DNA of 64,000 bases from Lepidurus packardi (lineage: Eukaryota > Arthropoda > Branchiopoda > Notostraca > Triopsidae). A program made the position numbers and the translations under genes. The notes under the pieces are model-generated. The model searched no databases. It was given only the letters and a program-made list of their open reading frames with translations, and was not told the DNA's origin. This document shows, piece after piece, positions 791 to 63,614 of the stretch. The first letter of the stretch is position 1, and the number at the start of each line of letters is the position of its first letter. The stretch is from assembly GCA_023053545.1 (NCBI GenBank), contig JAKZAN010000002.1, positions 4,944,375 to 5,008,374 of the forward strand, written 5' to 3'.

Positions 791-2042
791 AGCGTAACCA
801 ACAATGCCGAACGTGCGATTTTACTATGACGCAGAAAGTCTGGAATGTTTTTCGGGGGACGCCAGGCAAGAGTAAGGCTTTGTGGAATGCGTGGAATGCG
901 CGCAATTAAATTCTCGCCTAAGGGCTCACGAAGGTTGTAAAAATGACTACTAGATAGCATGTTCACTCTGCTTACTGTTATCCCCGCACAGGTGGAGGTG
1001 ATGATCTGCGTAACCGAGCTTGAAACGCATAATGAAAGAAGGGTACAAAAAAGAGGGGTTAGGGTGGGTTGTAAAGGGAATAAGGAAAGAAGAGAGGGGA
1101 AACAATAAGTGTCAGCGGGGGTTAGTGATGGATGGAAAGATTGCCAATTAGGGATCACTATTTAGCGTAAAGGGCAAGCTTAGTGTTGCGTTTTAGTGGT
1201 TATTGCTTAACCTTCCGCGAAAGATCATGCCGGGTACTACTTTTTCGAGCTCCCTTTTTTTAATTATTATCGGAAAGTTTAGCAAGAGGATGCAGGCAAG
1301 AAGTTCGGGGATCAATAGTTGCTTACGCACGTCTGGCAGAGAGACAAACAAGGGACCTTCACCGGTGATGCTTTCCCCTATTCCTATAACACTTTTCTAT
1401 CCGTTCAACTGATCAATTCCAAGCCGTGGAAATCCTTTATATTTACTTTCAACTCCGCCCATTGACCTTTTCTGAAGGTTCTAATGATCGTCTTCTTGAA
1501 CCGAGATGATCCTATCTTTGCCCTTCTTTGGATTTTTGAGGATTCTAGTTGTTTTCAAGATCGTTTTTTTTTATTTTCTGCGATTCTAAAGACTGCAATT
1601 CCCGAACTTTGATTCCCAGATTTTCAAATTTCTAATTATTTTTGTTTAATTTGAAAAAATTTGGAATGCAGGCAAGAAATACGAGAGAATGGAAATCTTC
1701 AGAATTCGAACTTTTTTTCTATAATTTGAAGATTTCTGGTGTTCTTGGAATTTGAAGAGCGATTGGATTTGAAGGAATTTGGAGTTCGATTTGACGATCT
1801 CTTTGATTTTCCAATTTCTAATTCTGGTTCGCTTTAATTTCCTAGATTCCAATTCTAGTTTTTGAACTTTAAAGATGCCTTCTTGCCCTCTGGATTTATT
1901 ATTATTATTATTTCGAAGATTTTCATTACGGCGACCTGAGGTTTCTAAACTCCCTTCACAGTCATACAAATGATATATCACCACGCACAACAGTGAAATA
2001 TTACTACGTACTATAAACAACAATGAAAGGAAGACACCATAG
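791..2042. other. Intergenic, no gene seen
   Basis: Open frames on both strands are short and show no domain, splice structure or codon bias. From about 1440 to 1930 the sequence is low-complexity TTTGGATTTGAAGATTCT-type text, which looks like a decayed simple repeat. Confidence 0.6.
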
Positions 2043-12572: not shown

Positions 12573-12784
12573 GTCTAAGAGAACAACGTCTTGGACTCAC
12601 AAAAATCGACAGAAAATGACGGAATTTCTGCCCGTTTACCTTCTTTTTGTACTCTGGGGATTTCTTAACTTTGTGTTGTCGTTTATGACGCGTCACTGTA
12701 CTTCCCCTAGTATTGACATTTAGCCATATTTTAGGACAGAATAAATGAAGACGGTGTACTTTTGTCTCCCCGTTGCTTGACATA

Positions 12785-14050
12785 AAGTTTCTTATTCATT
12801 GGAAAGCTGAAAAAGTGGCCTCTAAGGGCAAATCCAGTGCTCAACAGCAAAGGGGCCAGAAACATGAGGTACAAATAGAAAGCATCCTGTAGATTATCTG
12901 AAAACTAATTAACTGTCCTCGCCGTCTGGGGCGGAAGTATTCCTTTGAACTGATGGATAACGGCGTCAGATCTTCAAAGCCTGTTGCATGCTGCACCTTG
13001 CAACCTTGCAGCAATACCAAACCTTGCTCAGCAGTAAGTTTTTGCTTTCGCGTTATTTTCTTTGATACCATGTTTCGTATGCAAAAAAAAAGAACGCTGA
13101 TCAATGAAAGATTTTACTTTTCAAATTGCTGAGACTTGGATCATTCCCACGCAGGAGCGTACGACGTGCTGCGTCAGGAGGGAAATGTCCAAAATGTAAC
13201 CATAACACCACGCAATGAAACAATATCTATCGTGATGAAACAATATGAAGCAGTATTTACCACGCAATAAAAATTATGAGCACGCAACTTGCTTGAATAT
13301 GTCAGATATGTAATTACTAAGGGTTTAATCACGGCACTTTCACATAAATATGGATTATGGGCATAAATTTTGTACTCGTAATTATGAGTAGCTACACGCA
13401 TTGAAAACCCTTAACTGTTTTAATAGGCTTGCAAATAGGGTTGTTATTTGTAGGCTTGTTTGCATAATATATGCCCATTGATTATAATTTAGCACATTTA
13501 ATTAACTTCAGGACTAATAATATGAACGCAGTTTAATAGAATGTATAGTACTATATATAATCATTCCCCTAAGCAGTAGTTGGTAAAGTGTGTCTATTGG
13601 TGGAGTTTTTGTATGCGTGGAAAGAAAAAAAATGACCAGAAATAATAATACAAAGCGGGCATTCCTTTGAGACACATTGTTTTCTTAGATCGAAGAGCCT
13701 TTAAGCTTGGAAAAGTAAACTTCTTCTTAACGTTTATAGTCGATCCACGCCATCTAATGGGTGCATTATCGACACTGGAAAAGTAAACTGTAAGTATGGG
13801 CCAAGGGAAAGGTTGTATTATTGTTACCAGAGATGGCGTTTCGCTCACTCTTCCCAAACAAGGAAAATATTGCCTTGCTGATAATTCCGCCACAATCCTT
13901 TACAGCGATTGTCAAAATTCGGTCCTAATATTATATTAAGTTCTGGTGAACAACAAGAGAGCAATCCACACCCAAGTAACACTAAACAGGTAACATTTAT
14001 TTTCTAAAAATTACCTTAAATGAAGGGATTACATGTGACATATCTAAGAG
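12785..14050 (-). pseudogene. Decayed ionotropic-receptor copy
   Basis: A broken tandem copy lies between receptors A and B. Its 5' part (about 14050-13565) parallels receptor A: a short first exon with donor AAG|GTAATT, the acceptor CTGTTTAG|TGTTA, and the block around CCAGAGATGGCGTTTCGCTC. The 3' part of exon 2 is nearly all missing. The intron (about 13560-13160) aligns closely with receptor A's intron at 11120-10740 (shared TCAGATATGTAATTACTAAG and GGGTTTAATCACGG). The last-exon remnant (about 13080-12785) is closer to receptor B. No long reading frame survives. Coordinates are approximate. Confidence 0.8.
13746..13761 (-). promoter_or_regulatory. CTCF-like motif
   Basis: Minus-strand text CCCATTAGATGGCGTG, inside the decayed receptor copy. 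Motif match only. Confidence 0.3.
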
Positions 14051-14326
14051 ATCTACGTCTTGGACTCACAAAAGTCAAACGAAAATGCTTGAGATAATAA
14101 CGTAATTCCTACAGGCTAGAACTCTGAAAGTTTCTGCAAGTTTGAACAGACTTTGGACAGGTTTTAACTTTGTTTATCGTTTATAACGCGTTACTACTTC
14201 CCCCAGTATTGACATTTAGGCATATTTTAGGGCATGACTAAAAGTTACAAGTTAAGAGACGGTTAAGAGGAAAGAATAAATGAAGATGCTCTACTTTTCT
14301 TTCCCCTTTGCTTGACATAAAGTTTG

Positions 14327-16989
14327 TTATTCATTGGAAACCCGAAATCGTGATGCCCCAGGGCAAATCCAGCGCTCAACAGCGAATGCTAGTAGTGTAG
14401 GGACCAGAAACATAAGATACAAATAAAAGGCGCCCTGTAGACTATCAGTCGAGAGAACTAATGAACTGTCGTCGCTTTGTGGAGCGGAGGTATTCTTTTG
14501 AGCTGATGTGCGGCTTTCGATAACGGCGTCCTGGATCCATTTCTGTAGCAAACCGCTTTGTAGCGTACGAAGTGTTAACGTCGTTAGAGTATGTCTGAGG
14601 GGTGAATTCTTGGGCAGACCCACGGCTACATTGTAGGGCTGTAGGCAGTCTTTTATAGGGCGCAAGGTTGGCATACCACGGTGATTCAAATTAGTCGCCA
14701 GAGCCGCATATTCCACGTAAGCTCGACCGTCGACGTACGCCATTTTTGCAGTCACGTTAACACGTGTGGAACCAGTTTGGTTCAGGATTTGGAAACCTTC
14801 GCCGATCTTACGACTCGTCGGATCCTCCGAAATGAGTAATAGCCGTTTCAACTCTCCGCTAGCTCCGCCCCATTTTAATCCACTGAGGAAGAAAAAAGGT
14901 TTAACTTTTTGTCATAAACTGACGTTATTGACCTTAAAACTTGTTAAGTTGGGCAATTTAGCGGTAAAACTAACACCAGAATCTCCTGAGAATCAAATTG
15001 TAAGAAAATCTTCCTTTTAAAAAAAATCTATTGATGTATTCTTCAACTTTTTCCGTGCCTTAAATTGTAAATTTCATTTGGAAAAAGTAAAGTATCTGGG
15101 AATGGATTCATAACAATTAAACGCCATCTAGCGCTGAAACTATAACCTTCTCTTGCATCCTTGGATAACAAACAAACGCCATATTTTAGGGGAAATTGAA
15201 CCAGAACGACAATATAAGTTAAGAAACTGTCTAGTAGACTACCTTAAAGACACTAGACTAATAGAAGTGGTGTAATAATAATATATAAGATAATAATAAG
15301 ATCAATAGAAAGATCAAGACCAATAATAAGATCAATAGAAAGTTTGTTTAAGAAATAATCTTTATAAAAAAAATCAAAAATATTAAATGGACAGAAGTAG
15401 TCGATAATGTGCCCGTTAGATGGCACAGTTTTGACTAAAAACAGTCCAACAACAACAAACGCCATAGTACTGTATTGAATTTGTCGATTTGACGGTATTC
15501 AAACAGATTTCTTTTAGTTGGAAAGCTGATACTTGGTGTTAGTGAATACCTGAGTTATTTTTACCTTTCTAAAAACTGATCCAGAGTATCTATTGGAGGT
15601 AAGCTTAAGGGCAGTGATAAAGAGGCAGTGAGGTACGCTCGGTACCCACATATGAGCAAGAAGAAAGATCCCCAAATCATGGAAACGCAGATACGAATAG
15701 GCCAAGGACTTCGATCATCAATACTCATGATTCCTGATACGATTTGAACGGTATAAAAGATCCCAAACCCTGGTTTGCGAAAAAACATGCCAGGATTCCT
15801 CTTGGGCAGATAGAAGTGATACACTTCGGCTACTGCGGTGGGTACCAAACTGGCAATAAAGAAAATACCGAAGGATGCCAGCCATAATTTTTGCTCAAAC
15901 GGTTGAACTAAAGCTCGCCAGCGTGGCACTGGCGCAGGTTTCTTAGTAAGCAGTGTAACGCAGTCTGAAAAATGCGGATACGCCATATCTATGAATGGCA
16001 AGAAGGCTCTGGTGTAATAGAGCGAAGCCACAGCTATTTGGGCCCTGCTCTGTTGTAATTCCCCGAATAGACCCGTCCAAGTACCGTTGGGGAGGGGTAA
16101 ACCCCACTTGATTCTCCCTGGCGGACTATAGAAGGCTGGGGTGAAATTCATGATTTGACCGAGCATTTGGATGTAGGAAATTTCAAAGCCACGGTAAAGT
16201 TGTTGGGATTCGTCAAATTGGGAGATGTAGGGTTCAGCGACAAAGGAGCAAACTTTAAGTGGCGAACCGTTTAAGTTTAAGAATTTACGAGGGTAAAAGG
16301 TTGCTTTTGGAGCGTGAATTAGCTCAGTTTCATTCCACACACCTATTACGCGAATTCTGGCGTTATTCTGCAAAGGGGAATGCGTGCGGACTTCCCAGAG
16401 CAGTTTCCCGCCTTTCTTGAACGGCCGGATGCAGATGGCGTGGGCAATCAGTTGCAATGGTTGAGACTCGAGGACGGCTTGGCTAAACTTGCGGTTGGGT
16501 TGAAAGGAAAGAAAGGCCAAACGAATCGGTTTTTGTAGTGAAGGATCGCGGAGGATACCGCTTACTACTTCTATGGCTTCGAGAGGATCGGCGACTAGGA
16601 TGATTTTGAATTTACAACTAATATTGATAGTGTTGCTAGTGAAATCGTAGCGAGAGCCATCTAGCGCCTCGTTTTGGTCTTGCCGAGTTTTGATAAGGAT
16701 GGGAACTTCAAAATGGGGGATGAAACTGCTGATAATTTCTTGGTGGAAATCACTACCATCGTTGATGATCATAAAGCAGTTAACGCTTATTATATCTTGA
16801 CTGGCAGCTTTAAGCAAAGGTACCAGGTCATGGCTGAGTTTGTGGGCGGTACTTTCTGGACGAGTCAGCGGTATACATTCATTGACGTCGAATAATAACC
16901 CAAATAAGATTATTACTTCCCTAAAAAAATATCACAAAAGAATGTATATATTCTTCTTTAAGCTAAAGAACTTACCCCAGAATCTTCAT
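14327..16989 (-). CDS. Ionotropic receptor (divergent iGluR family), receptor B
   Basis: Same family and exon plan as receptor A. Three exons, 641 residues: 16989-16976, 16920-15565, 14882-14327, phases consistent. The tiny first exon (MKIL plus two bases) joins GEVIILFGLLFDVNE to make a signal peptide. An extracellular N-terminal region comes first, then S1 (VCSFVAEPYISQFDESQQLY then GFEISYIQMLGQIM), M1 (LWLASFGIFFIASLVPTAVA), pore and M2/M3 (SMIWGSFFLLICGYRAYLTA, SLSLPLSLPPIDTLDQFL), S2, and a final TM (GAFYLYLMFLVPTLLAFAV). The shared junction (LPPIDTL...|KWGG) shows common descent with receptor A, though the extracellular parts have diverged widely. Ligand unknown. Confidence 0.88.
15121..15135 (-). 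promoter_or_regulatory. CTCF-like motif in receptor B intron
   Basis: Minus strand reads CAGCGCTAGATGGCGT, a good match to CCNSYAGRKGGCR. It sits about 290 bp from an opposite-facing match at 15411. Confidence 0.4.
15411..15428 (+). promoter_or_regulatory. CTCF-like motif in receptor B intron
   Basis: Plus strand reads GCCCGTTAGATGGCACAG. It faces the opposite way to the match at 15121-15135. Confidence 0.4.
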
Positions 16990-19485: not shown

Positions 19486-19911
19486 AGTTGTTCCTGGCTC
19501 GAAAAGACAAGTTGCCCTGTAGCTGTGTATCGTTTGCCAAGAGGCGGGATTTCTCTAGACTTGTTTCACTCGCGTTATCCTCTCCGAGGCTTCGCTTGTC
19601 TTCTCTGAAAAGAAAGATTGGCCTTTGGAGTATTTACAGTTGAAAAAGGCAGTGATCCCATCGCTCTTCGTCCATTCAGACTCCTATTGGAGTTGACAAA
19701 GGGTTTTCTTCCTCGTTTCATTGTTTCACTTGCCAAAAGTGTCTGAACTTAAGGGAAAAGTTGAATTTAATTAAAAATTCTAATAAGCTTTCGTCGTTTT
19801 TCTTCCAGTTTACCGTGACATCCTGTATTGGGAAAAACGTGTCAAAAACAACCAACAAAATCATGCAACAAGCTTCGTGATCTAACATTGAGTGATTAGT
19901 TCGGTCGCGAG

Positions 19912-34846
<14,935 letters not shown>

Positions 34847-42100: not shown

Positions 42101-45100
42101 GATTTAAAATCCAGCTCTGGAGCCTTTAGAAGGATATAAGGATATTCACACGCGATATAGTTCGAAATATCGAATCGAATTAGCTTTCTCTTGATTCTCT
42201 CATAAGAGTTTTAATAGAATTTTAGTATTCTTAATTTGTGTAATTTTTTCATTCTGGAAACTGGATTTTTATTCCTGAATGTGGTTCCATCATTTCTGGA
42301 TGGAATTCATTTCAACCAGAACTTTGATTTCAATGTTTTAATCCAGAAATAAATCGAATTTAAATGACTTTAATGTGGATTTTAAATTTTTTGGATTTTG
42401 TTACATTTTGTGGATTTTAGATTTTTTAGTTAAGGGATGAATTCAGTTCAAGTTGGATGATTTCAGTGAATTGAAGAATGTATCAGACAATTCTTAGCTC
42501 ATTAAAGTGCAATTACTTCAAATGCAAACATTTTAAGTTCATAATAGAAGAATTTTCTTTAAATTGATCTGGTTTTTTTAATTTGAGTCGAATTCGTTTA
42601 GATTTTTATTCCATTTTTTCGAATTCAGTGATTGTGTTTGGAATTCTGAGATCCACTTGACTCAGTGGATTTCCTAATTAAGCTGATCAGTACTTTCGAT
42701 TCAATTATTTTAAACTCATTTATTTTCGTTTACTTCTGGTTTTTTAATGCATTTAAAAGCCTTATAGGGTGAGGAGTGCCCTCAGGGGATGCTGTAGAGC
42801 AAGCAGGAGTGTCTTTTTCCCATGTCAAGAACAACAATACTCTTCTATTCTTCATCTCGCACCCCAACTACTGTTGAGCCTTGAATGCTCCAGGTTTGAG
42901 TAAGCGTTTGCGCGATTTAGGTTTGCCAGGAGCTCTCTATTCAGCTAGAGAGGCTGGAAATCAAGAGATCACGTGATCTAAGCTATGCTTTTCATCCATT
43001 TTTTCCATTTGATCCATTCTCTCCCCTCAACTCTCAACGTGGGAGCTTTTCATGTTTTTTTTATCAGCTTTTTCATTGGAGGGCTATTATGGAGTAGTGA
43101 GTGAAGCGAATGGTACCCCGAAAATTGTATTATGCAAAGACCCCCCTCTGAGGGTCAGATTACATGTGTGGGCACCACGTTTTTCATAGGAGGTAGGAGA
43201 AGTGCATGTTGTGCGTCGAAAATGACCGCTTTGGGATGCGTTAGGCCGCTTTTGAGATCTTTTTAGGGCTTAAGAACGAAAAAGACGTGGCTCCCATCAT
43301 ATGTTGTAAGCGATGACCGAGGTTAACTTGGTACACGTCGCTGGAATCGTTTTTTTGGAGGGGGAGAGCTTGATTAGTAGGGATTGTCTTTCTCCTTGGA
43401 TGCACTTGGCTTGTCATGCGGAGCTTTGTAATGTACTCCCCCATTCATTGTTGGAAGCTTAGGTTTCAGTTAAACCTCGTACGGCTCTTTAGGCTAACGG
43501 AGTTGAAGTTCATTGTTGGCAGATTCACATGGAAACATTGAATACTGTAACGCCAAAGACAGGTTTCATTGGTGTTCGACATTTCATGTCTAGCAAAATG
43601 TTTTCCCACTTTTCATTGTTGCCATTTTTTTAGTAATTTCATTATTGCCTTTCTAACTCGGTGTCGAAACGATTGCTAAACCCGACATTAACTGTTGCTA
43701 GCTTATTCCAACCTAAAAATCGTTCAGCATTCTCTAGAAAAAGCATTCAATCATAATAAAAATAAATTGAAAATAAATAAACTTGAAATGTACAACAGTA
43801 TAAGTAATAGACTACTATTAGTATAACTATTTGATAACTTAAAAGATTATGGACTTGGCGTCCTTATGTCGAGGCCTACTATTAGTATAACTATTTGATA
43901 ACTTAAAAGATTATGGACTTGGCGTCCTTATGTCGAGGCCTACTATTAGTATAACTATTTGATAACTTAAAAGATTATGGACTTGGCGTCCTTATGTCGG
44001 GGCCTGACGTCCTTATGTCGGGGCCTGACGTCCTTATGTCGTGGTCTGGCGCCCTTATGTCGGGGTCCGGCGTCCTTATGTCGCGTTTTATGTCATTATT
44101 AATGGATTTCTACTTCTTCAGGTGCCCTCCGCAATTCGTGGGCGAGTATTGCCAGCACATGAACCCTTGTCACACGGGTCCGGGTCCGCGTTGTCAAAAT
44201 GGCGGTACTTGCACCGTCCAAATGTCGGCGTCCTCCGGCCCCAAGTTCTCTTGTACCTGTCCGCTGGGTTTTACCGCCTCCTTGTGCGAGATCCCCGTGG
44301 ACAACGCCTGCAATTCGTCGCCGTGTCGCAACGGCGCCAACTGCATCCTCCGAACGCTCCAAAACTACACGTGTGCCTGCTCGCCGGGCTTCCGGGGCCC
44401 TCACTGCCATGAAGTGGACCATTGCTCCCATTCGCCGTGTCGGAACGGCGCAACCTGTCAATCCTTGGAACACACGTACCAATGTCGCTGCGCTGAGGGA
44501 TTCTCGGGACCGACATGCGCCAACGACATTGACGAGTGCAAGAAGAATCCTTGCATGAAGGGACGCTGCGTCAACACCCACGGATCCTACAAGTAAGCGC
44601 CCGATGTTCATGATTCTTCCCACGTTCTCATCCACGATTTGCCTCGCGTTTTGCCTCGCGTTTTGCTCATATCCTCCTTCATAATGACACACTTTGGAAC
44701 TTTTTCCCACGCGCCAAAGCCAAGATTTGGAGGACATTCGGAAACTTGACAAAGGAAACGCTTCTTATTAAGGTTCATTAACAAACAACGCGCGATCCTA
44801 GAGATCCTTAGTGATTCTAGTCAGCAGAGGATGAAGCGTGACACAGAAATGAGAATTTCTTGAGAATTTTGTCCATTTCCATATTAATTGAATTTTTTTT
44901 TTATTAATTCAATTTTTTGTATTTTTTTATTAATTTCAGTTCTTTTATTAACCTAAACATTTTTATCTTAATTCAAAGACTTTCGGTATTAATCTAAAAA
45001 AAAATATACTAATTGAAAAATTTGATATTAATTCAAAAAAGGGTTAAAAAGTTTTATATTAATTGAAAAATTTTATATTAATTCAAAAAATTTATTAGTT

Positions 45101-48100
45101 TAATTTTTTGGTTAGTATACAATTTCTTGTTAATGTACACATGTCTTGTTTTAATTTAAACAATATTATCTTAATTCAAAGATTTTCTGTATTAATCTAA
45201 AAAAAATTCTATTAATTGAAAAATTTGATATTAATTCAAAAAATGAATTAGTTTAATTTTTTGTTAGTATACAATTTCTTGGTAATATACGCAGGTCTTG
45301 TTTTAATTTAAGCATTTTTGTATTAATTTCAAAATTGTGTGGTTAGTAAAATAATATAAATTAATACTAATTTTTATAATTTTTCTTCTTATTCTCCCAG
45401 GTGTGTGTGCAACACAGGCTACACGGGCCAACATTGCGAATCGCCGTACGTGCCCTGCTCGCCATCGCCCTGTCGTCATGGAGGCACTTGCATGCCGTTG
45501 GATGGACTACGTTATCAGTGTACCTGTCCAGCAGGTAATTTTTTTTTTTTTTTTTTTTTTTGTGGAAGTTAAGGAAGAGTCGGTGGCAAATGAGCTTCCA
45601 TCTCGAATTGGGAAGAGAGGAAATTGACAAGTCTGGATTTTTATGAAAGGGATCCGGGACGCCAATGACTGGAGCACGACTAGGGTCCAGTAAGAGAGGT
45701 TTATGGCCCCATACGGACCCAAATACCTCGATTTGAGCTGTTAAGCTTCCAAAGTATAGCACTTTGGTGTCACCGAAAAAGAAAAAATTCCCAAAAAACA
45801 TTTGAAAAAAAATAAGGAAAAATGAAATGAGAAGAAAACTGGATTTGGGAGGAGGGGAGAAGAGGAAAAAAAGACGGGTACACCTGAGATTTTTAAGAAG
45901 CCAAGCACGATTTTGAGTAATAGAGAAAGGGAGAGAAGATTATACCTCATCTTGACTCATCTTTCGGCTTTAAAAAAAAAAAATTTGGAAAACTTGTCAG
46001 ATGCCGGATCCTTTCGAGTCACATAGTCTCAGATTGCTGGGGTGATAATTTCGACATGAGAATGCCGTATTCCTTATAGGCTTGGAGACTTTGCGGTGGC
46101 GAAAAGTTAAGACCACCCATCGACTTTCCACTTTGGACTACCTTTTCGGACCCCCAGTAACTTCCTAAACCGCCAATTGTTCCACCTTTGATCAAATATT
46201 TTCCTTGCTTTTTTTTTTTTTCTCTCAATTTTCTTTATTTCTTTCTTCGTTTTGAGGTTGGTCTAGCAATTTACAATTCGTTGGACGAATTAAGTCATGC
46301 TTCTATTTACTATAATTATACTTAAGAAGCGCAGTTTGTTTCAAGAACTATTTATTAATTCCTTTTCGCAATTTTATTTTTCTTCCTTTTTTTCATTGTA
46401 AGTTTTTTAAAGGTTTTAAAGTTTTTAAAGTTTAAAGTTTTTTTTAAGTTGACGTTTTTGGCAAGTTTTTAAGCTCAAGCCTAAAATTAAACCTTTATTT
46501 GACGAATTCATTTCACGAATTTGCTTTCAAAGGGCAATTTACTTCACAATTTGGTTTTTCATTTGATTTCTGTTCATTTTTCGCTAGAACTTTCACTAGA
46601 ACTAGAAGATAATCTAGTACAGCGTTTAATAGTTAGAAATTAATTTACGAATAGATTCCAGGATTAAATTTACTTAAAATTTTTTCTATTTGGCAGGGTT
46701 TTTTTGTTTTGTTTCTATTTTTTGGTTTTTATGGATTTTTCCTCGTTTAAAAAAATGAAAGGTAGTTTAGTTTAGTATTTCGGCAGCGTTTAAGGTAGAG
46801 CAGTTAAGACGTGCTGAAATGATCCTTGGAAAACGTCAGGGTTTTACAAGAAAGGTTAAGGAAGCCCCGCCCCCTCTTGGTAGATGGCTTTGCGCTAATG
46901 ACTTCCAAATAGCTAATGACCAAGCGAAAAAGTCCAAAGCGAGAGATAGACACAAAAGCGAGTTCCTTGTGGTTGACGTAGGAGAGAGAGAAGAAGGTGA
47001 TCTTCGCGTTTGTTGCCTGGGAAAAGAAAATTCAAAGCCCAAAATGCCAGTTCCTTCAGCTTGGGAGAGCTTGGGAACATTCCCAGGCTTCGTGCAGGGG
47101 AGGGAGTGTGTGCCTTGGGCCATTGGTTTTATAATCATACCTGGAATGTTGGGTTGCGAGACTTTTAAGAGTCTTTGGAGACTTGCGAGACCTGAAAAAC
47201 GGGAAGAAAAGTGGAAAGCGAGAAGAAGAAGAGAAAGAAAACTAGGGAAAGACTGAAATGTTGAAGAAGAGGAAGAGAAGGAAAGAATGAAGAGGAGGAA
47301 GAGAAGGAAATGGACACACAAAGCTTTTATAAATGGGCGTAATCACGAAAAACTTGAGGCTTTTTGGGGTTGTGTGTTTTCTTTGTCTCATGCGTAATTT
47401 GTTTATTGTAAAAAATTTATTTACTGTTAAATTGATTGTGAAAAATCGTAAAAAATGCTGGGTTTGGTATTTTTAATGATTTTTTGAACCCGTTTTCGTT
47501 TGTAGGGTTCACGGGACCGGATTGCCAAGACAATGTCGATGATTGTCCAGGGCATTTGTGCCAAAATGGAGCGACTTGTGTGGACGGCGTCAATTCGTAC
47601 ACGTGCCAATGTCCGCCGACGTTTACGGGACCGTATTGTAGCCAAGATGTGGACGAATGTGCGTTGAGACCCTCGGTATGCAAGAATGGAGCGACGTGTA
47701 CCAACACGCCGGGCGGATACTCGTGTATTTGCGTCAATGGATGGACCGGGCCGGATTGTGCGGAAAATATCGATGATTGCGCAGGCGCCGCTTGCTTTAA
47801 TGGCGCCACATGTCACGACCGGGTTGGCAGCTTTTATTGCCAATGTGCTCCTGGCAAAACAGGTACGCTAATGACTGTTTCTGATGGAGGAATCCTTCCG
47901 AGAGCGCGACAACAAATTTAGAAATAATAAAACTAACCAAAAAAAAGGAAAGAAAATTGGTCAAGAATTGGGGTTTTTTACATGTCGTGAGGTTAAAGTT
48001 CTTGTTTGGGAATTTGAAAGTCATAAAGTTATTAGGTACAGCGAAGGGTCGTCATATAGGACAAAAATGAAAAGATCGCGAGGAGAAATAATGATGTTTT

Positions 48101-51100
48101 TCATTGTTGGGAGTTCAGAAAGAATTTTTTTTTTTTTTTTTTCATTTTTAGAGGTTTGAAACGGTTCATTGTTGATTCTTTAGTTACCACATACGTGTTT
48201 TTGGTGCTAGTTAGTATTTCATTGTTGGCTTCGAGACGACAACAAAGAAAGATTGACGAAAAAAAAGGAAAAAAATTAACTTTGGGGGGTTTTCAGTTTT
48301 GGTATTTTTGCGTTGACATTTTTAGAGGGAAAGTTCGAAGTTTCATTCTTGACAACATTGTAAGTTTCATTGTTGGCCCTTTCTAGAACAAATGACGCTG
48401 TTGTGGCTAGCTAATTTGTCACTCTTGACAGCATATAGCTTCAGACTAGGGGAAAACAAGATTTTTGTTCATTGTTGACGCAGTTCTATCATTCCAAAGT
48501 GGTTTTAGCACAGTCTTCTTGTTCATTGTTGCCAACTTTGATGATTCCATTGTTGCTTGTATTTGCTTGCATTGTTGCTTTCGTTGTTACTGGGTTATGT
48601 TTGATGGATGGTGTGGGTAAGATAACAATGGGAGTATTAACTAGTCAAAATTCAACTCGCATTGTTGCCACTACGAACGTTCTCGAAGATTCCGTGATCT
48701 GTTGTGATACTATTGAAAGTTTTCATTGTTGCAGTTCCTGGCTTTCATGGTTGCACTTTTTAACATTGCATTCTTGCATTTCTAACACGAGAACTTTGCA
48801 TTGTTGCACTTTTTTGACATTTCACTGTTTTTTTTAACATAACATGTAACAATCGCAAGATTCTCAACATTGTTGTCTTTAGCAGTTAAAAGAACAAAAT
48901 TACAGTTAAATTATTTTACTATTTTTTCCAAAACTGAGTAAAAATAATGCTAATATCCGATTTTTCATTGTTGCAGTTTTGTAACGTTTCATTGTTGATA
49001 CTTTGATTCGCAAGATTTGAAACTTTTTTTTACTGTAGCAGTAAAAAGGACATAAATATTTAAAAAAAAATAATGAGTAAAATGAATTCTAAAGTCAGAT
49101 TTCACATTGTCGAATTTTTTTTAACATTTCATTGTCAAATTTTTTTTTTTTTACATTTCATTGTTGATATTCCGGATCGCAAGATGTTAACTTTGTTGTC
49201 TGTAGCAGTTAGAATGAGAATATTTAAACAAAACATGAGTGAAACTAATTTCAAAGTCAAATTTTCATTGTTTGAATTTGTATTTTATTTTATTTTTGTA
49301 TTTATTTTAATTTTTTTTTTTTAGGTTTGCTCTGCCATTTGGATGATGCGTGCGCCTCGAACCCTTGCCACGCCGGTGCTATCTGCGACACGTCTCCGAT
49401 TGACGGGACTTACGTCTGTTCGTGTCCCAACGGTTTCAAAGGCGTCGATTGCACGGAAGATATCAACGAATGCGAAGAAGGCTTGCCTTGCGAACACGAC
49501 GGCTTGTGCGTCAACACACCCGGCTCTTTCCGCTGCAATTGCACGCGCGGGTTCACGGGCCCTCGCTGCGAAATTAACATTAACGAATGCGACTCGAACC
49601 CTTGCCAAAACGAGGGCACTTGCCTGGACGAGCGTGGAGCTTTTCGCTGCGTCTGTATGCCAGGTAAATAACCTTTTGCCTCCTATCGACTTTTGTCATT
49701 TTTGGACCCATCTCAGCGAAAGCCGAAACGAAAGAAAGAAACTTAAGAATCCCACGAAAGGGAAGGGTAAAAACATACCGCACCTCCCAAACGTATGGGA
49801 ATAAGGAGGTCAAAGAGCGTTTTGAAGCTGCGTTTGAGTACACTGAGTAAGAAAAACTGGGGAGGATTGTTTCTCAGGCCCATTTTTGACAAGTTTTGAC
49901 CTCTAACCCGGCCCCGAATTAAGCGAGTCGCTGGGAACGGAGCAGTTCTGCTCCCACGCCACGTGTTGTGTAGTGTGGCCGTGGTTTGCCAGCGTTCCAG
50001 GCTCCCAAAGCGCGGCAGATGATGGAGTGCAACATGTGTACCACACTTCGTATTTCTGCGCTGTGTTTTTCTCTGCTCTTAGATCCTTTAGAAACACTTG
50101 TGTTTGAAGGGGGGGGGGAGGTTTTTATTGCGCTGGGGATGGTAGTTTAAGCAGCCTGATTCAATTAGCTCATCGTCACGTTGAAGAGTCATTGACTAAA
50201 GCTTTTGATCTGCGTGAGATCTGTTACTCCACAGTTTTCCGAGTATTGTTGCGCAGCAAGTCATGCGCAGCGACTCGAAGGATTGCGCGGGCGGGGAGGG
50301 GGGGGGGGGAGAGAAGGATTTTTCTTCATGGCTGCACTTACACCACTTTTGGTTTTTCATTGTTGATTACAACACTTGGTTTTTTCATTGTTGACGTCAC
50401 GCTCCGTGGAGAATGACAACTACTGCAAGGCTTTTTGTAATGGAAGATAGAGTCAAAAATAGAGATAGGATTGGCTAGTAAGGCCAGCAATGGGCAGTTA
50501 TGAATGGATTTATATGTGTAAAGAGGAACAGAAGTTAGGCCAAAAAAAGGGGAAACAGGGAACGGAAGTGTACCGACAAGGAGAATCCAACAATTGGCAA
50601 AGGGCAGAGCGGATACTAGAGAACCCACAAGCTGTTGCTCCTGATGGTTTTTCTTCCATCCAAAAGAAGAATTTTGACGGGTCCTAAAGTTCCGCTTCCT
50701 TGAATTGGACACCTTTGCAGGTTAGGGTTCAGATTTTTTTTATTGGCAGGTTTTTCTTGTTAGGAATATTCATATGTCCGCCATTTTTGGAATAATGTTT
50801 GTCCTTTGTCAGCAGTTTTCAAGGAAGCTTCATTACAAGGAGCTAGGTCTAGGAATTTGACAGATTTTTAACTTGAAATCTTTTCCTTAGCTTATCAACA
50901 ACAGAAATAATAGTGGATGCAATATAGCTTATGCTTTAAAGAAGATTTTTTTCTATTAAAAGCATCCAAAATGAGATTAAGTAACGCTATGGGTGCCCTA
51001 AATAGGCAATATAAGCAAATATCAGTTGAAAAACGATACCTAATCGTTTCTGGCATCATTTTTGTACTAGTTCGTAAACATCTAGTCCAGTGTTCTGATA

Positions 51101-54100: not shown

Positions 54101-57100
54101 CACCGTCGTCCAATTTCCTCGACTTTGCCTGTACGTGTGAACTGGGTTACACGGGACGCTTATGCGACAAAGACATTGACGAATGCGCGGTTTCTTCGCC
54201 TTGTCGTAATGGGGCCACGTGCTTTAATACGAATGGATCCTATACCTGTATGTGCGCCAAAGGATACGAAGGAAGAGACTGTCTGATCAACACTGATGAC
54301 TGCGCTTCTTGTAAGTATTTTCGGCTTTATTTAAGTCGTTTTTAGGTCGTTATTTAATGAGATTTTAGCTAGTTGCTTTCAATGCAGATTACGAAGAAGG
54401 GTTTTCCTTTTTCATGTGTAATTTTCCTTATAAAAAGCATTGTATTTGGCATTATTTGTTGAAAAGCCTTCTAGAACTCTAGCTTGAATCCTATTAGCTA
54501 ACCTTGACGTCATTGCAAACTGTAGTATTGACAAGTCATGAAACGCGAATAAGCCATTCACTCATTTCGCGGTTCTAGCTCGATTTTAAATACTTCCAAA
54601 CCAGTGTTTTAACGGTTTTCGCAGTGTTTTCCTTTCTTGTAAATTCTGAAAGACAGAAATAGTTTCTACTGTTGGAAGTTCAGTAAATTCAAACTATGGT
54701 TGAATTTACTGAACTTTTTGTGTAAATTTATTACTTTGGGGTACAAACGAACGTTTTGTTCCACGCCACAATGAATTCTCCATTGTAAGTGTTTCTTTCT
54801 AGAGTTTACTTATCTTCAACACTGAATATTCTAGATTGAGTTCAGTTCCACAGTAGAGACAGTTGTTTAGTTTAGCATTCGTTTATTTTGTTCTTTTGAT
54901 GCATTGCATTATATCTAAGAAGCTGTGTATGCTCATGCTACAGATTATTTAAAAGTCTGCTTGATCAGTGGAATTAAAATGTTGTTTTTTCTCCTTTAGT
55001 TCCTTGCCAAAATGGAGGGACTTGTTTGGATGGCGTTGGCGAATACACTTGTTTGTGTGTGGACGGGTTTGGAGGTGACCACTGCCAAATTGACGTTGAC
55101 GAATGCGCTTCATCTCCTTGCAAAAACGGTGCTACATGCCGAGATTACGTCAACTCGTACACTTGCACATGTCCATGGGGTTTCTCAGGAACCCATTGCC
55201 AAACCAACGACGAAGATTGCACTGCATCCTCGTGCATGAATGGCGGCTCCTGCATCGACGGCGTCAACAATTACACTTGTCTGTGTCCCCCGAGCTACAC
55301 CGGCTCCAATTGCCAATCTCGGATCAACGAATGCGATTCTGCGCCTTGCGCCAACGGCGCCACTTGCTTAGACCGCACCGGTGGTTTCACTTGCCACTGT
55401 CCTTACGGGTTCACCGGTCCCCGCTGCGAAAACTACGTTGATTGGTGCACTTTGGGTGGCCCGGGACCCGGTTTAGGCGTCCATGGAGCCCAGGGCAGTC
55501 CTTGTTTAAACGGCGCGACCTGCAAACAAATTAACCACACCTATCAGTGCACCTGCGCCCCCGGTTGGACCGGATTGCTCTGTGACGTCGAAATGGTCTC
55601 TTGCAAAGACGCTGCCATTCGTAAGGGCATCGCCGTGCCCGAACTCTGTCGCCATTCGGGAAAATGCCAAGACATTGGCAACAGCCATCGCTGCATCTGC
55701 TCAGACGGGTATTCGGGAAGTTATTGCCAGCACGAGATCAACGAGTGCGAATCGGCGCCTTGCCAGAACGGCGCTACTTGTAACGACCAAATCGGCTCGT
55801 ATTCCTGTTCCTGCGCACAAGGCTTCCAAGGCCCCAACTGCGAATTCAACGTCAACGACTGCGCCCCCAATCCTTGCCGAAACGGCGGCGTTTGCCACGA
55901 CCTAATCAACGCCTTTTCCTGCTCTTGTCCCCATGGCACGCTGGGCATCCTCTGCGAGATCAACGTCAACGAATGCTTTGAAGGGGCGTGCCACCATGGC
56001 GGCACTTGTATCGACAAAGTAGGCGGCTTTGAATGCCAATGCCCGCCCGGTTTTGTCGGTCCACGGTGCGAGGGCGACGTTAACGAATGCTTGTCCAACC
56101 CTTGCTCGGAAACGGGCACCCAAAACTGCGTCCAGTTGGTCAATAACTACCGTTGCCACTGTAAAGCAGGGTTTATGGGCCGCCATTGCGAGATCAAAGT
56201 CGATTTCTGTGAGAGTTCGCCGTGCCGGAACGGCGGAGTCTGCAACAACGGCGATAGTTCCCATCAGTGCGTTTGTCCGTCAGGTTTCACTGGTAAGAAC
56301 TGCGAATTCGCCGGATCGGAATGCGACGCCAACCCTTGCCAGAACGGAGCAACGTGCCGACCCTACGAATCGGGTTATAGTTGTACCTGTCCACCGGGTA
56401 CTTCGGGTCCGCGCTGCGAACTAGACACCCGAGATGAATGCGCTTCGCGACCGTGCCAAAACGACGGTATTTGCCATGATCTAGTAGGTCGGTTCGAATG
56501 CTCCTGTCCTCCTAGTTGGAACGGCATTCAATGCCAAGTCTATGAACCCACTTTCCCTGGTGGAATTGGCCGGCCGACTTCGCGTCAACCTACGATTTCC
56601 ATTGATCTGCAAAAGGAAAAGGAGAAGTGCGCCTTGCAGCGTTGTCATGAAAAGAAGCGGAACCGCAAATGCGACGAGGAATGCAACACCATGGCTTGCG
56701 ACTTTGACGGCGGGGATTGTAGCTTGGGTTTGAATCCGTGGGAGAACTGCACGGCGCCGGTCGCTTGCTGGGAACTGTTTATGAACGGGGAATGTAACGA
56801 GGTTTGTAACAATGCCGAGTGTTTGTTTGATGGCCGCGACTGCCAGCAGCAAGTACCGCCTTGCAACCCGCTGTACGACTCGTATTGCAAGATGCACTAC
56901 GGGAACGGACGCTGCGACCCTGGTTGTAACACCGCCGAATGCAGTTGGGATGGCCTGGATTGCGAAGCTGAACGAGAACCGGATTTGGCCCAAGGAACCA
57001 TTTCGGTTGTCATGCTCATGGATCTTGCGACGTTTAGAAACCAGAGCGTGGCTTTTGTACGCGCTATGGGGAGACAGCTGCGTACTACGGTGCGCATTAA

Positions 57101-59843
57101 GCAAGACGCCCAAGGTAATGACATGGTTTATCCCTGGGATCCTGCGGAGGATCCTAACATTGCGTTCGGGTCCGGGTCCAGCTTCCTGTATCCCGGAGCC
57201 GGTTCCAAAGGTTTGGTCGCGTACTTGGAGATGGACAACCGCAAGTGTAGCCAGAGCGACAGCTTTCAGGAGTGCTTCCAATCGGCGGAGCAAGCCGCGC
57301 ACTTTCTGGCCGCTTCAGCCACGAACCACGCCTTGGGGACGGATTTCCCTATCTATCGCGTCCAAGGCCTCAACGCCGGACCGCCGACCCCAGCTGATGG
57401 AGAGGACAGTCCTACCAGCAAGGTAACTTACATCTTGGTCGCTGGTTTACTCGTCTTACTCGGAGCGGCAGTTTTGGGAATCATGGTTAACGCCAACCGT
57501 AAGCGATCGAGGGGTATTACCTGGTTCCCGGAAGGTTTCATGCGAACCAACTCGGGCCAGCGACGGACTTCACACCGTCGAGGTCCTGATGGTCAAGAAA
57601 TGCGCAACTTGCACAAACAGCCCTCGATGAACCGATTGGACGCCATGTCGAGAGACGTTTCAGGCATGGATATGTCGGTCGACCGCGGGGTTGAAGGTTC
57701 CCAGTGGTCTGACGACGACGATTCCATGGATCGACCTCCGACCAAGCGTATTCGAGCGAACGAAGCGGGTTACGCGAGCGACCAAACGGCGGTGACCGAT
57801 TACGACGAACCCGATCCCCGGCAATGGACCCAACAACACTTGGACGCGGCTGATGTTCGACATCCTGATGTGTTACACGCGTTTACACCGTCAGGCCAAG
57901 CGTCCGCCGACGCGAACGGAGATATCGACGTTCGAGGACCGTACGGGTTCACACCCCTCATGTTAGCCGCTGGCCATCGCGGAGGATTAGACACTGGCGA
58001 GGAAGAAGAGGAAGATGTCTCTGCGGCGGTTATCCAGGACTTGCTCATGCAAGGCGCCAAGCCGAATGCGACCATGGACAAGACGGGCGAAACCTCCTTA
58101 CATTTGGCAGCGCGTTACGCGCGTGCGGACGCTGCCAAACGTCTCTTAGAAGCTGGCGCAGACGCTAACGTGCAAGACAACACGGGTCGCTCCGCGTTAC
58201 ACGCAGCCGTCGCATCGGACGCTCAAGGCGTCTTCCAGATCTTATTGCGCAACCGAGCGACCAACCTGAACGCGAGAATGCATGACGGAACCACCCCTTT
58301 GATCCTTGCAGCGCGTTTAGCCATTGAAGGCATGGTCGAAGACCTGATCAACGCCGACGTCGACATTAACGCCGCCGACGAACATGGGAAGACGGCCTTA
58401 CACTGGGCGGCCGCCGTCAACAACATCGAAGCGGTGACCATTCTCTTAACGCACGGCGCTAACAAAGACGCGCAAGACGACAAAGACGAAACGCCACTGT
58501 TCCTCGCCTGTCGGGAAGGGTCCTACGAAGCCGTAAGATCGTTGTTAGACCACCACGCAAACCGGGACATTCCCGACCATATGGACCGCCTTCCTAGGGA
58601 CGTGGCCCAAGAACGGTTACACCACGACATCGTTCAGTTATTGGACGAACACGTCGCACGGAGTCCGCACGCCTTATCTTTAAACAGTTCCAACCATAAC
58701 CTCCTCAACTCCCCGCCCAACATGGGACACTTGGGGAACATGGGCGGTGGCGCGGGCGACTCAGGTACCAAAGGCCGTTCTAAGAAACGGCCGAAATCGG
58801 CCGCCGTAGCTAAAAGTGATCCTGACGGTGCCGCGGCTTCGAGTAATACCAACGTTAATGGGAGCAAGCGGAAAACGAACGCCAGTACCCGGAAGAAGAA
58901 GGCGGAACCCACTCCGATCGGTAGTTGTAGTACGGTCCAGAGCGCGGATTCGGTCTGCACCGTTTCTTCCACTTTGTCACCCGCGACTTCTTACTCTCTC
59001 GAGTCGTCACCCATGGAAGCGACGCTGGCGTCGCCCTACAACGTCCCCACCTACGGTAGCCACCCCCACATGAGTGCGCCACCCCAGCCGCCACCTTACG
59101 ACAGCCTCAAAGCGGCTGCATCCATGCAAACCATGCACGTAGGTATGGACTACGGGTACGTTCACTATGACTACATGTCGCGACCGTTGGGCCAGACCCA
59201 TTTACCGCCTGCGCAACACCAAAGGCAAACTTCCTGCCCCGCGGCCTCCAACCCTTCCTACAGTAACAATTTGGCGATCGCGGTGTCCCCGCCCTCGCAA
59301 TACGCGTTATCGCCCCCCGCTTCCTACACCAATTCACCGCCAGTCCAGTCGCCCACCAAGGCGAGACCCATGTTACCCACTTCCCCTACTCACATGGCCG
59401 CTATGCGCGCCGCCACCCAACAAAGACACCCGGGCAGTGCAACGTCCAACTCGACCTTCGAGTTTCCCTCGCCCGTAGGCGACATGGGGTACGGCCGACC
59501 GCAGCAACAACCCCATTCTCAGCAGCAGCAGCAGCAACAACAGCAGGTTTCGCAGCAGCAACAGCAGGCGAATATGTACTATTCGCAGAATATGCAATAT
59601 CCCACGCCGCCTTCGGTGCATTCCCATATGAGTTCCGAAGCCACGCCCCAACACCTTCATCCCCCCGAGGCGTACCTCACGCCGTCTCCTGAATCACCGG
59701 GACAGTGGTCGTCGTCGTCTCCACATTCCACTTCGGATTGGTCCGAAGGACTTTCATCGCCACCAGGACCTACCATGTCCTACCATGGAGGGCCTGGAGG
59801 GCAAATGCATCCTATGCAACATCCTGAAGGCGTGTACATTTAG
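36116..59843 (+). CDS. Notch: Neurogenic locus Notch receptor, complete
   Basis: Single-pass receptor for Delta/Serrate ligands; gamma-secretase frees an intracellular domain that joins CSL/Su(H). Nine coding exons, 2537 residues: 36116-36191, 38902-38986, 44122-44592, 45401-45534, 47506-47862, 49325-49663, 52606-52842, 53240-54310, 55000-59843, all phases consistent. Signal peptide [21 protein letters not shown] count exactly 36 EGF repeats, as in fly Notch, including ligand-binding EGF11-12 ([33 protein letters not shown]). Three LNRs begin at [19 protein letters not shown] (about 1467). HD follows, then TM ([20 protein letters not shown], about 1732), RAM motif TWFPEGF, ankyrin repeats (about 1904-2140), polyQ (about 2424) and C-terminal degron [19 protein letters not shown]. 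The last exon alone encodes half the protein. No furin RxxR motif is seen in HD. Confidence 0.98.
36192..38901 (+). other. Notch intron 1
   Basis: 2.7 kb with no coding frame. A perfect G/C hairpin lies at 38210-38233 (CACCCCCC-actaaaa-GGGGGGTG). Long introns at the 5' end of Notch often hold enhancers, but I see no specific site cluster. Confidence 0.6.
38987..44121 (+). other. Notch intron 2, 5.1 kb
   Basis: No coding frame. It contains a direct duplication (AATGAAGCTTAATTAGGCAT, at about 41168 and 41226), a T8G19 run (41743-41769) that could form a G-quadruplex, several TTCATTGTTG copies (43444, 43509, 43612), and the nested repeat at its 3' end. Confidence 0.6.
43812..44085 (+). repeat. 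64-bp unit x3 passing into 21-bp units x5
   Basis: CTACTATTAGTATAACTATT ... GGCGTCCTTATGTCGAGGC starts at 43812, 43876 and 43940. From 43984 only its tail (GGCGTCCTTATGTCGGGGCC) is repeated, in 21-bp steps, up to about 36 bp before the exon acceptor at 44121. Confidence 0.9.
44593..45400 (+). other. Notch intron 3
   Basis: Right half is an AT-rich degenerate repeat (TTAATTGAAAAATTTGATAT, TAATTCAAAAAA). Nothing else seen. Confidence 0.6.
45535..47505 (+). other. Notch intron 4
   Basis: Begins with T22 right after the donor. Open frames near 46819-47256 on both strands are purine/pyrimidine-biased and lack any domain; I see no gene here. Confidence 0.5.
47863..49324 (+). repeat. Notch intron 5 with dispersed TTCATTGTTG motif
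   Basis: Ten exact copies on the plus strand: 48100, 48165, 48218, 48366, 48468, 48522, 48722, 48964, 48988, 49157. About eight one- or two-base variants lie between them (TTCATTCTTG, TCCATTGTTG, TTGCATTGTTG, CGCATTGTTG). Spacing is irregular, 24-240 bp, and the text between copies is not repeated, so this is not an ordinary tandem array. Confidence 0.85.
49664..52605 (+). other. Notch intron 6
   Basis: No coding frame. Contains the structured stretch at 49931-50000, two TTCATTGTTG copies (50356, 50385), short G and C runs, and a diverged tandem pair of about 176 bp (51071-51245 and 51247-51400; shared TTCGTAAACA, GTTATCGATTATTAGT). Confidence 0.6.
49931..50000 (+). other. Possible three-way-junction RNA element
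   Basis: Outer stem CTGGGAACG (49931-49939) pairs with CGTTCCAG (49993-50000), with one bulged G. Inside, GGAGCA-gttc-TGCTCC (49939-49954) and CCACG-CCAC / GTGG-c-CGTGG (49954-49984) form two further stems. No family recognised, and coincidence is possible. Confidence 0.3.
54311..54999 (+). other. Notch intron 8
   Basis: No coding frame or repeat seen. Confidence 0.5.
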
Positions 59844-60960: not shown

Positions 60961-61812
60961 AATAGCTCGTTACGCTAACGGCCGCAACCGGCGCTTTGTC
61001 CAACTTGCAGCCTCAGTCGCGCTCGCAAAGTCGAACAAGTTACGTGTTCAGAAAGAAACTATTGTTATGCATAACTTTATATATAGAATAGTTGTGTTTT
61101 TAGCTGAATTTACGTAACTTAATTTGTCTGCAGTTACGAACAACATTCCTGTTAATTTATAAGCATTAATTTAGCTTCATTTGTGGATTTTTTGCGTGTT
61201 TTCAGTGCGAAGTTTCATTCAAACGTTTGGGCGTGTAGGCCTTTTATAACGTCTAAAACGGACGATTTTGTGAAATTTGGGGTCGACAAGCTCAAACAAG
61301 ATGCCGCTGGGTTATTCTTTTTCATCTTTTGCCTGCTCCAGTTGGTAATTATCATTTGAATTTGTTAGGAGAGACATCGTGTTATTTCTTCGCCTGTTAT
61401 TCAAATGAAGCTGAGTGAAAACATAGCATGCCACGTGGGAGAGTTATGTGTGAGATTAAGGAAAGATATTTTAAAATGTATTTAGCAGTTTAATTTAATG
61501 AAATAGATCAGTAATAATAAAAGGAATAAAATAGGTCCGTCCCCTTTGCGTCGCAGCTTTCGTTCTTATGAATTCGGCTTATTAGTTAGTTATTTATACA
61601 TGGAAACGAATGTTTATATTATAGGGCTTATTCCACGAGCAGTTTCCTGGGTTAATCCACCAGATGCGACACTGTAGAAACCGTACGGCGGTGGCTACCG
61701 TGAGAACTAGGGAAAAACAGCCATTTCTTGAGAGTTTATATTTACGTTCGCCACTGTCACTAGAGTACCAGTGGCGGGAATTCACTATTTACCCATTTAG
61801 TCTGTGATACAC
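60961..61812 (+). other. 5' flank of the SWIM-YqaJ gene
   Basis: An acceptor-like AG before the coding start (ACCCATTTAG at about 61791-61800) hints at an upstream exon. One weak candidate is the open stretch at about 61207-61363 (FHSNVWACRPFITSKTDDF), which ends at TTG|GTAATT in phase 0. Unproven. Confidence 0.25.
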
Positions 61813-63614
61813 ATGAAAGAGACCCAGTGCGATTCATTCTGTGTTGTTATTTTTTGTAATATGGAACTAAATAAAAATTCAGATTGGACAACTTGCCTGA
61901 CTTACGTTCCTTTTCTTAGTGAGAGTGTAATTAAGGACTACTTTAATCGGTCCACTGAAGGAAAAAGGCATTATAGGAGAAGCGAAACATTCCAAAAAGA
62001 ACAGTATATTAGTAAGGTCGAAACTTCGCAGACAGAAGATAACTGTATTCAGGTACGAGCTAAATGCTTTCGAAGTTTCCGAAAGAATGAGAAGCCTCAC
62101 GATGTTATGCTATTTTTAAAAACCGCATTGGCCATACAAACATGGCAAGACGTAATAAAGAAAGTCTCATGTACTTGTGCTGTAGGTATTAGTGGTTACT
62201 GTAACCATATTATTGCAACTTTGAAGGTGCTAAGTTCCTACAAATGCTCTGGGTTTGAGGAAGTTCCCCCAGAGATAACATGCACTAGTCGTCCCCAGCA
62301 ATGGGGTGTAATCCGTTCCAGAGAACAATTTTATTTTCGCTTAAGCGATAATAGTCACACGCGTTCCCTCATTTTTCGTCCTTCTGTGAAAACTTTCTCC
62401 ACTGCTGAACAACACGAAGCCCTAGATAAACTGGCGGAAAGCTTTCAATCAAGAAAGAATGTCATGGCCGAATTTTTGCGAGACACTTCGTCCACGTCTG
62501 TACCCTTACAATATACACGAATCGGAGATGTTCGTGAGGATTGCACTTTATATTACCAACTTCGTAGTAATGCCTCAGATTACTCGGTATGATTCGTTAC
62601 TACTCTAAACAAAGAATTGTTACAAATTTTAGGTGATTTGAATTAATAGGTTGTCACGAACATTGACCCTTGTCAAATCTCGACTCGCACACAATTTCAA
62701 AGCTCCGGTTGGGACGGCTTTTCATTACCGGTCCGTGGAAACTCTCTACTAGAGCGTTTCAGGGAAGGTTTCCTCAGTCTTATTAGAGTATCAGCTGCTG
62801 AGTCGCGAGAAATCGAGAAGAATAGTAGGGCACAATCCGACAGTCATACATGGAAAATTTCACGAAAGCTGAGGCAAAAAAACGCCAATAGTAAAAAGCT
62901 TAATTTTAAAACCCTCTTCTATTCATATTTAGGCTGACAGCGAGTAAATTTGGACTGGTAGTCAACCGGGTTGCACCATGGACAGAGACAGGAGTAAAGA
63001 ACGTCCTGCTGTCAAAGAATCTTAACGGAATTAGAGCCGTTAGTTTTGGCAAGAAAAATGAGTCCGTAGCAGCAAAACGCTATCAGGCAGAGCTAACACG
63101 TTTGGGCCATTACGTAGAAGTTGACTATGTTGGTCTCGTCGTGAACCCGCAAACGCCCTGGCTTGCTGCTAGTCCAGACAGGCGGGTCTATGATTCCGCA
63201 GAACTGTCCCCACATGGAATTATTGAAATAAAATGTCCTTATTCACTCAGGACAAAAAAGCCCCAAGAGTGCCTTTCTTGCAAAGATTTCTACGTTAGCC
63301 TAGTCGACGAGAAACCTAAACTCAAAAGAAACCATGATTATTATTACCAAGTATTAGGACAAATGGCCTTGTCAGGTGCCGACTGGTGTGATTTTGTAGT
63401 TTACACGTACAAAGGTCTTATAATCGAAAGAATTCATTTCGACCAAGACAAGTGGAACGAAATCAGTATAAAATTGACTGACTTCTATTCTATGTGCAAT
63501 ACGCAATTCCGTTTTATTCAAACCAAAGAGAGTCTGAACAAAATCTCTCGAAGTCACCTGAACTCTGACTCAAACAAATTTCAAATATACAAGTTACCCA
63601 GTGTTATATCCTAG
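61813..63614 (+). CDS. SWIM zinc finger plus YqaJ-type nuclease protein
   Basis: Three exons, about 559 residues: 61813-62586, 62650-62873, 62933-63614. A SWIM finger (CTCAVGISGYCNH, C-x-C-x8-C-x-H) is at about residues 120-132. The YqaJ exonuclease fold begins at RLTASKFG (about 333) preceded by W-x3-R-x2. It has PD at LAASPDRRV (about 414) followed by GIIEIKCPYSL (the E-x-K) and the downstream YYYQVLGQMALSG, so the PD-(D/E)xK residues are all present. The second intron (59 bp) uses a GC donor (AG|GCAAAA); splicing there restores the canonical LR|LTASKFG join. The reading frame looks whole. Such SWIM-YqaJ proteins occur in many invertebrates, often in multi-copy families, and YqaJ nucleases accompany some cut-and-paste transposons (ISL2EU type); that link is inference here. 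An ATG at 61861 is an alternative start. Confidence 0.75.

Follow-up and report, generated by a model that had tools for sequence, protein, structure and literature searches.

A scattered ten-base word forms same-strand clusters in the Lepidurus packardi genome and may act as an RNA-level site

The decamer TTCATTGTTG is a real and unusual feature of the genome of the notostracan Lepidurus packardi, where it is scattered in thousands of places, and neighbouring copies form polar clusters, lying on the same strand as one another. In the 64,000-nt stretch considered here (positions 4,944,375 to 5,008,374 of contig JAKZAN010000002.1, hereafter the window), which carries the genes WDR47 and Notch, ten of these copies lie in a single Notch intron. 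Our best guess, a tentative one, is that the clusters are putative homotypic binding sites that act at the level of RNA.

The window holds 21 exact copies, 19 on the plus strand and 2 on the minus strand, whereas 100 dinucleotide-preserving shuffles gave 0.25 copies on average and never more than 2. A first-pass annotation of this DNA had reported the same strand totals and regarded them as beyond chance, and both statements hold, although the last plus-strand copy starts at 50384 rather than 50385. All plus-strand copies fall in the spans of the two plus-strand genes. Ten (48100, 48165, 48218, 48366, 48468, 48522, 48722, 48964, 48988 and 49157; span 48100..49166) lie in one Notch intron at approximately 47866-49324, its limits taken from predicted exons, and the stretch 48000-49320 that holds them occurs only once in the genome. 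Two more (50356 and 50384; span 50356..50393) lie in the next Notch intron, and three (43444, 43509 and 43612; span 43444..43621) lie ahead of the first recognised Notch exon (44145). The first-pass annotation had placed every plus-strand copy in an intron; the position within the WDR47 and Notch spans stands, but for the copies at 43444-43612 we can only infer an intronic status, because they precede the first recognisable Notch exon. Within the WDR47 span, single plus-strand copies are found at 23421..23430 and 27384..27393, and the pair at 31055 and 31192 (span 31055..31201) represents a local duplicate, given that the upstream flanks are 90% alike. Of the two minus-strand copies, the one at 26931..26940 is antisense inside the WDR47 span, and the one at 2018..2027 has a near-identical copy at C2:4939622 and is therefore a member of a small dispersed repeat.

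Across the 108,557,554 bases and 344 contigs searched, the exact word occurs 3704 times (1892 forward and 1812 reverse), compared with 310 occurrences (140 and 170) of the reversed word used as a control, a 12-fold excess. The excess is sharp. With up to one mismatch there are 21,244 places versus 9,999 for the control, and the thirty single-mismatch words taken together are up only 1.8-fold. In a sample of 283,713 bases from 36 sources, chosen because they hold the word, the exact form has 124 copies on the majority strand and 7 on the minority strand, and the commonest single-mismatch variant has 9 on the same strand and 4 on the opposite one; the many near-matches described earlier do exist, but they are far rarer than the exact word. 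We also surveyed all decamers of this sample with at least 12 copies, after removing low complexity and setting aside overlaps with the word or its one-mismatch variant. TTCATTGTTG occupies 111 unrelated contexts in this survey, and the best non-overlapping rival, TGTGACGTCA, occupies 14, with none higher. We know of few animal genomes in which one exact ten-base word occupies thousands of mostly unrelated, polar-clustered places, although this statement comes from no systematic search. Among the paper titles listed in searches on the word, its parts and like systems, none dealt with such a motif, and those for the word and its parts concerned other things.

The flanks of most sampled copies are unrelated, and the copies do not derive from any single satellite or mobile-element family. 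In 122 non-redundant contexts, T precedes the word in 77 and follows it in just 19; the fuller form of the word is TTTCATTGTTG, with a following base that is seldom T. Sharing between flanks amounts to this one base on each side, in agreement with the earlier description of a word embedded in unrelated text, and no fixed-offset partner within 250 nt reached significance in the same contexts. A minority of copies sit in arrays and repeats: many different tandem units, in several arrays, carry the word, L017 is a palindromic satellite that carries it, and L001, L002, L003 and L005 are one larger repeat. In an open reading frame (ORF) that by eye resembles a retroelement (L012, L015 and L019; approximately 1468-1632), a variable number of NNEFSDVERDV repeats is encoded by a 33-nt unit, the antisense strand of which reads the decamer. 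A resemblance to a start-codon context had also been pointed out, but it explains little; 4 of the 95 sense matches beside splice donors (described below) begin one signal-peptide gene family, recognised by eye, with CAACAATGAAATTC. One may postulate from these cases that the count of the word is mostly the sum of ordinary sources, namely retroelement coding sequence, satellites, dispersed repeats and start codons (CAACAATGAA). We regard this as quite improbable in view of the 122 non-redundant contexts in the sampled loci and of the close pairs, of which approximately 65 among 100 listed same-strand pairs 10-40 nt apart (151 in all) are distinct by our reading.

The clusters are polar. Pairs of copies 10-40 nt apart are on the same strand in 151 cases genome-wide and on opposite strands in 20 (10 for each opposite arrangement), where simple arithmetic from the counts predicts by chance approximately 2 pairs on the same strand and 1 in each opposite arrangement. 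Pairs 400-430 nt apart number 62 on the same strand and 8 on opposite strands (2 and 6), or 39 versus 7 once rows presumed to belong to arrays or to the L017 satellite (23 same-strand, 1 opposite) are left out. We also examined 30 loci holding close pairs, of which 18 remained after removal of repeats, overlaps and the window's own loci; additional copies no more than 1.4 kb away from the pair used for selection were on the same strand 14 times and on the opposite strand once. Because many loci were fetched for holding a same-strand pair, polarity is more cleanly judged from the pair counts across the whole genome. Spacing within clusters is not fixed.

Local duplication contributes to this pattern but is not the whole explanation. 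Of the 75 same-strand neighbour pairs no more than 400 nt apart, 24 exceed 95% of random pairs in the similarity of their flanks and the other 51 do not; neighbours on opposite strands within the same distance number 6, five of them in L017. In the ten-copy Notch intron, the copies at 48988 and 49157 are related through an old duplication of approximately 170 nt (73% identity), and the flanks of the remaining neighbour pairs are mostly dissimilar. The earlier suggestion of a short mobile or expanding unit is thus partly borne out by the 24 related pairs. Related to this is a scenario of neutral or selfish spread, in which the word sits in locally duplicating sequence, keeps its orientation while the flanks decay, and has little or no function. 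The related neighbours, the Notch duplication and the many different tandem units that carry the word are what such a process would leave behind, and retention of the word in diverged duplicates also bears on it. Retention is 40 of 47, against approximately 26 expected from other decamers of the same alignments, and without repeat families it falls to 12 of 18 against approximately 7.4, and the most diverged class retains the word in 0 of 4; an inference of selection from these duplicates, which appeared strong at first look, was cut to a weak one by this fair same-alignment control. Neutral spread fails, however, to explain why one decamer stands out, with 111 contexts where the next non-overlapping word has 14, and polarity is still present at 400-430 nt; we consider it a less likely, though still live, account of the word.

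Orientation relative to host genes was assessed in the Hox region and at loci whose gene strand could be called. The region C1:1,556,756-1,838,017 contains eight homeobox exons, all on the minus strand, and appears by eye to be an intact Hox cluster of approximately 280 kb, outside the window. Among the matches listed, 25 copies lie between its homeobox exons, 23 of them on the minus strand, that is, sense, and 2 on the plus strand; four of the 23 form one array with 86-nt spacing. Elsewhere, gene strand was called from exons with Pfam matches above cut-off, a procedure that did not include repeat loci and left 18 further loci uncalled, several Pfam searches having yielded no match above it. 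Sense copies are in the majority at 13 of the 17 loci with a called strand (one-sided binomial, approximately 0.025): WDR47, Notch, the Hox cluster, spondin (L049), a sterol-sensing gene resembling patched (L057), BCAS3 beside a tyrosine kinase (L052), a Fic gene (L027), an innexin (L032), PDCD10 (L026), an SMC gene (L053), a thioredoxin-domain gene (L024), a DUF938 gene (L029) and a pyridoxal-dependent decarboxylase (L035). At L027, L029, L035, L053 and L040 the word sits outside recognised exons, in DNA that may or may not be intronic.

The sharpness of the word, its mostly unrelated flanks and the polarity of clusters whose spacing is not fixed together suit a single-stranded reader better than they suit a usual DNA-binding factor, and for this reason an RNA-level site is our first, if tentative, choice. 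The word would then be a short, sequence-exact recognition element present in thousands of places, often as same-strand homotypic clusters in non-coding DNA. Transcripts, including long introns, untranslated regions and possibly non-coding RNAs, would display several copies of UUUCAUUGUUG, onto which a sequence-specific RNA-binding factor, probably a protein, could load, and splicing or the later fate of the transcript might be affected; the first-pass annotation had likewise raised a splicing-factor or RNA-binding-protein site as a possibility.

Several observations weigh against this interpretation. Within-cluster counts are biased, as most sampled loci were picked because they held clusters or same-strand pairs, and strand agreement between neighbours among the first 100 C1 matches, with close same-strand copies collapsed, is 48 of 82 (p 0.06). 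Retention without repeat families is weak, as noted above. Antisense copies are in the majority at 4 of the 17 loci: an EGF gene (L051), a kinase (L044; 4 of 6 copies), an MH1-domain gene (L042) and an ADAMTS-like gene (L056) that was recognised by eye only and has no Pfam match. The first-pass annotation had proposed to split a genome-wide count into intron sense, antisense and intergenic copies; as run for words 11-71 nt from a GTRAGT donor, the split is 95 sense versus 85 antisense (78 without one tandem array of 7 rows), which gives no clear bias, although on a rough estimate approximately 75 extra sense matches would be expected if every copy were intronic and sense, and a milder bias would be missed. 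Base skew on the motif strand is only weakly sense-like, with T exceeding A at 24 of 36 loci and G exceeding C at 19 of 36, and was dropped as a strand marker. Given the flat donor counts, the weak skew and the p value of neighbour agreement, we regard the sense orientation of copies relative to their host genes as an unproven tendency; the sense bias described from the window is present there and in the Hox cluster (23 of 25), but a general rule of sense orientation in introns is not supported.

An alternative is that the clusters are sites, all facing one way, for a directional DNA-binding protein of an enhancer, boundary or fork-barrier type, with no RNA step. This possibility, which we view with some doubt, follows close behind the RNA-level site because fully antisense polar clusters exist (L051 and L042) and the donor test is flat. 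Enriched DNA-type binding words do exist in this genome, as the CRE/ATF-type palindrome TGACGTCA is present 31 times in the sample versus 3.8 times expected from base composition, approximately 8-fold. Ordinary DNA sites need no shared orientation, however, the spacing here is not fixed, and orientation agrees with the gene strand in the Hox region and at 13 of 17 loci. The palindrome itself occurs 8 times in the window, at 19962, 20112, 23933, 25294, 32021, 34489, 50392 and 54505, and shows no clear association with the decamer in the sample, where 6 of 31 copies lie within 200 nt of the word against approximately 3.4 expected.

Known systems offer partial parallels to an RNA-level site. The YCAY clusters bound by Nova are homotypic intronic sites for an RNA-binding protein and likewise place several copies of a short word near one another on one strand, introns included, without fixed spacing; the word described here differs in being ten bases long and nearly invariant, and its sense orientation is not universal. 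Sites of the Brat-type NHL domain contain UUGUU and are described in mRNAs rather than introns. UUGUUG forms the 3′ part of our word, but the 5′ part, UUCA, is fixed as well. Among DNA sites, those of Sox HMG-box proteins tolerate both CATTGTT and CTTTGTT and need no common orientation. CATTGTT is found inside the word, but the CTTTGTT form, TTCTTTGTTG, is not enriched in the sample (4 copies on the same strand and 3 on the opposite, versus 124 and 7 for the exact word), and Sox sites were set aside. The microRNA miR-181d, which contains UUCAUUGUUG and on which papers came up in the literature searches, was treated as a coincidence, since the flanks here do not follow it.

A further parallel is provided by the Ruby motif of nematodes, and one could imagine that the decamer is likewise a promoter motif placed upstream of small RNAs. 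The piRNA loci of Pristionchus pacificus are described as intronic, each preceded by a short motif, with the two orientations about equally frequent (PMC6436959); they resemble the present case in that a short motif is scattered in thousands of copies, many of them intronic and on both gene strands. In our 122 contexts, the start-like tetramer YRNT peaks at +47 (20 versus a mean of 10). This peak was not reproduced in the 58 contexts without a second downstream copy, a subset of low power, in which T at +50 reaches 0.47 and other positions are equally high. The GTTTC core named for those loci (PMC6436959) is missing from both the word and its complement, no significant fixed-offset partner and no convincing fixed-distance start signal were found in our contexts, the copies cluster on one strand, and the host is an arthropod rather than a nematode. 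A promoter of this kind is highly improbable here.

As to the remainder of the window, WDR47 is identified by an exon at 19903-21378 (plus strand; Pfam WDR47_COR) and Notch by an exon at 55002-59837 (plus strand; Pfam Notch/NOD/NODP/EGF), and the other exons of both genes were placed by codon score. Tandem arrays with 64-nt and 21-nt units that share GTCCTTATGTCG occupy 43812-44083, immediately before the first recognised Notch exon. By eye, open frames on the minus strand at 10197-16931 resemble tandem ionotropic-receptor genes, and those on the plus strand at 61801-63614 resemble a SWIM-finger/YqaJ-type recombinase gene of mobile origin. No Rfam family was found within the window at gathering thresholds.

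The boldest form of the RNA-level explanation is that thousands of exact UUUCAUUGUUG sites in same-strand clusters, some of them in long developmental genes (Notch, Hox, patched-like and spondin), make up a polar decamer code that spans the genome and that a single, highly specific factor reads on nascent RNA, a proposal that we put forward as speculative. We found no earlier description of such a pre-mRNA marking system. If the word is an RNA mark, it would open a simple way to study the recognition of long introns or of transcripts on the Hox scale; should it instead be a polar DNA element, it would represent a new orientation-dependent site.

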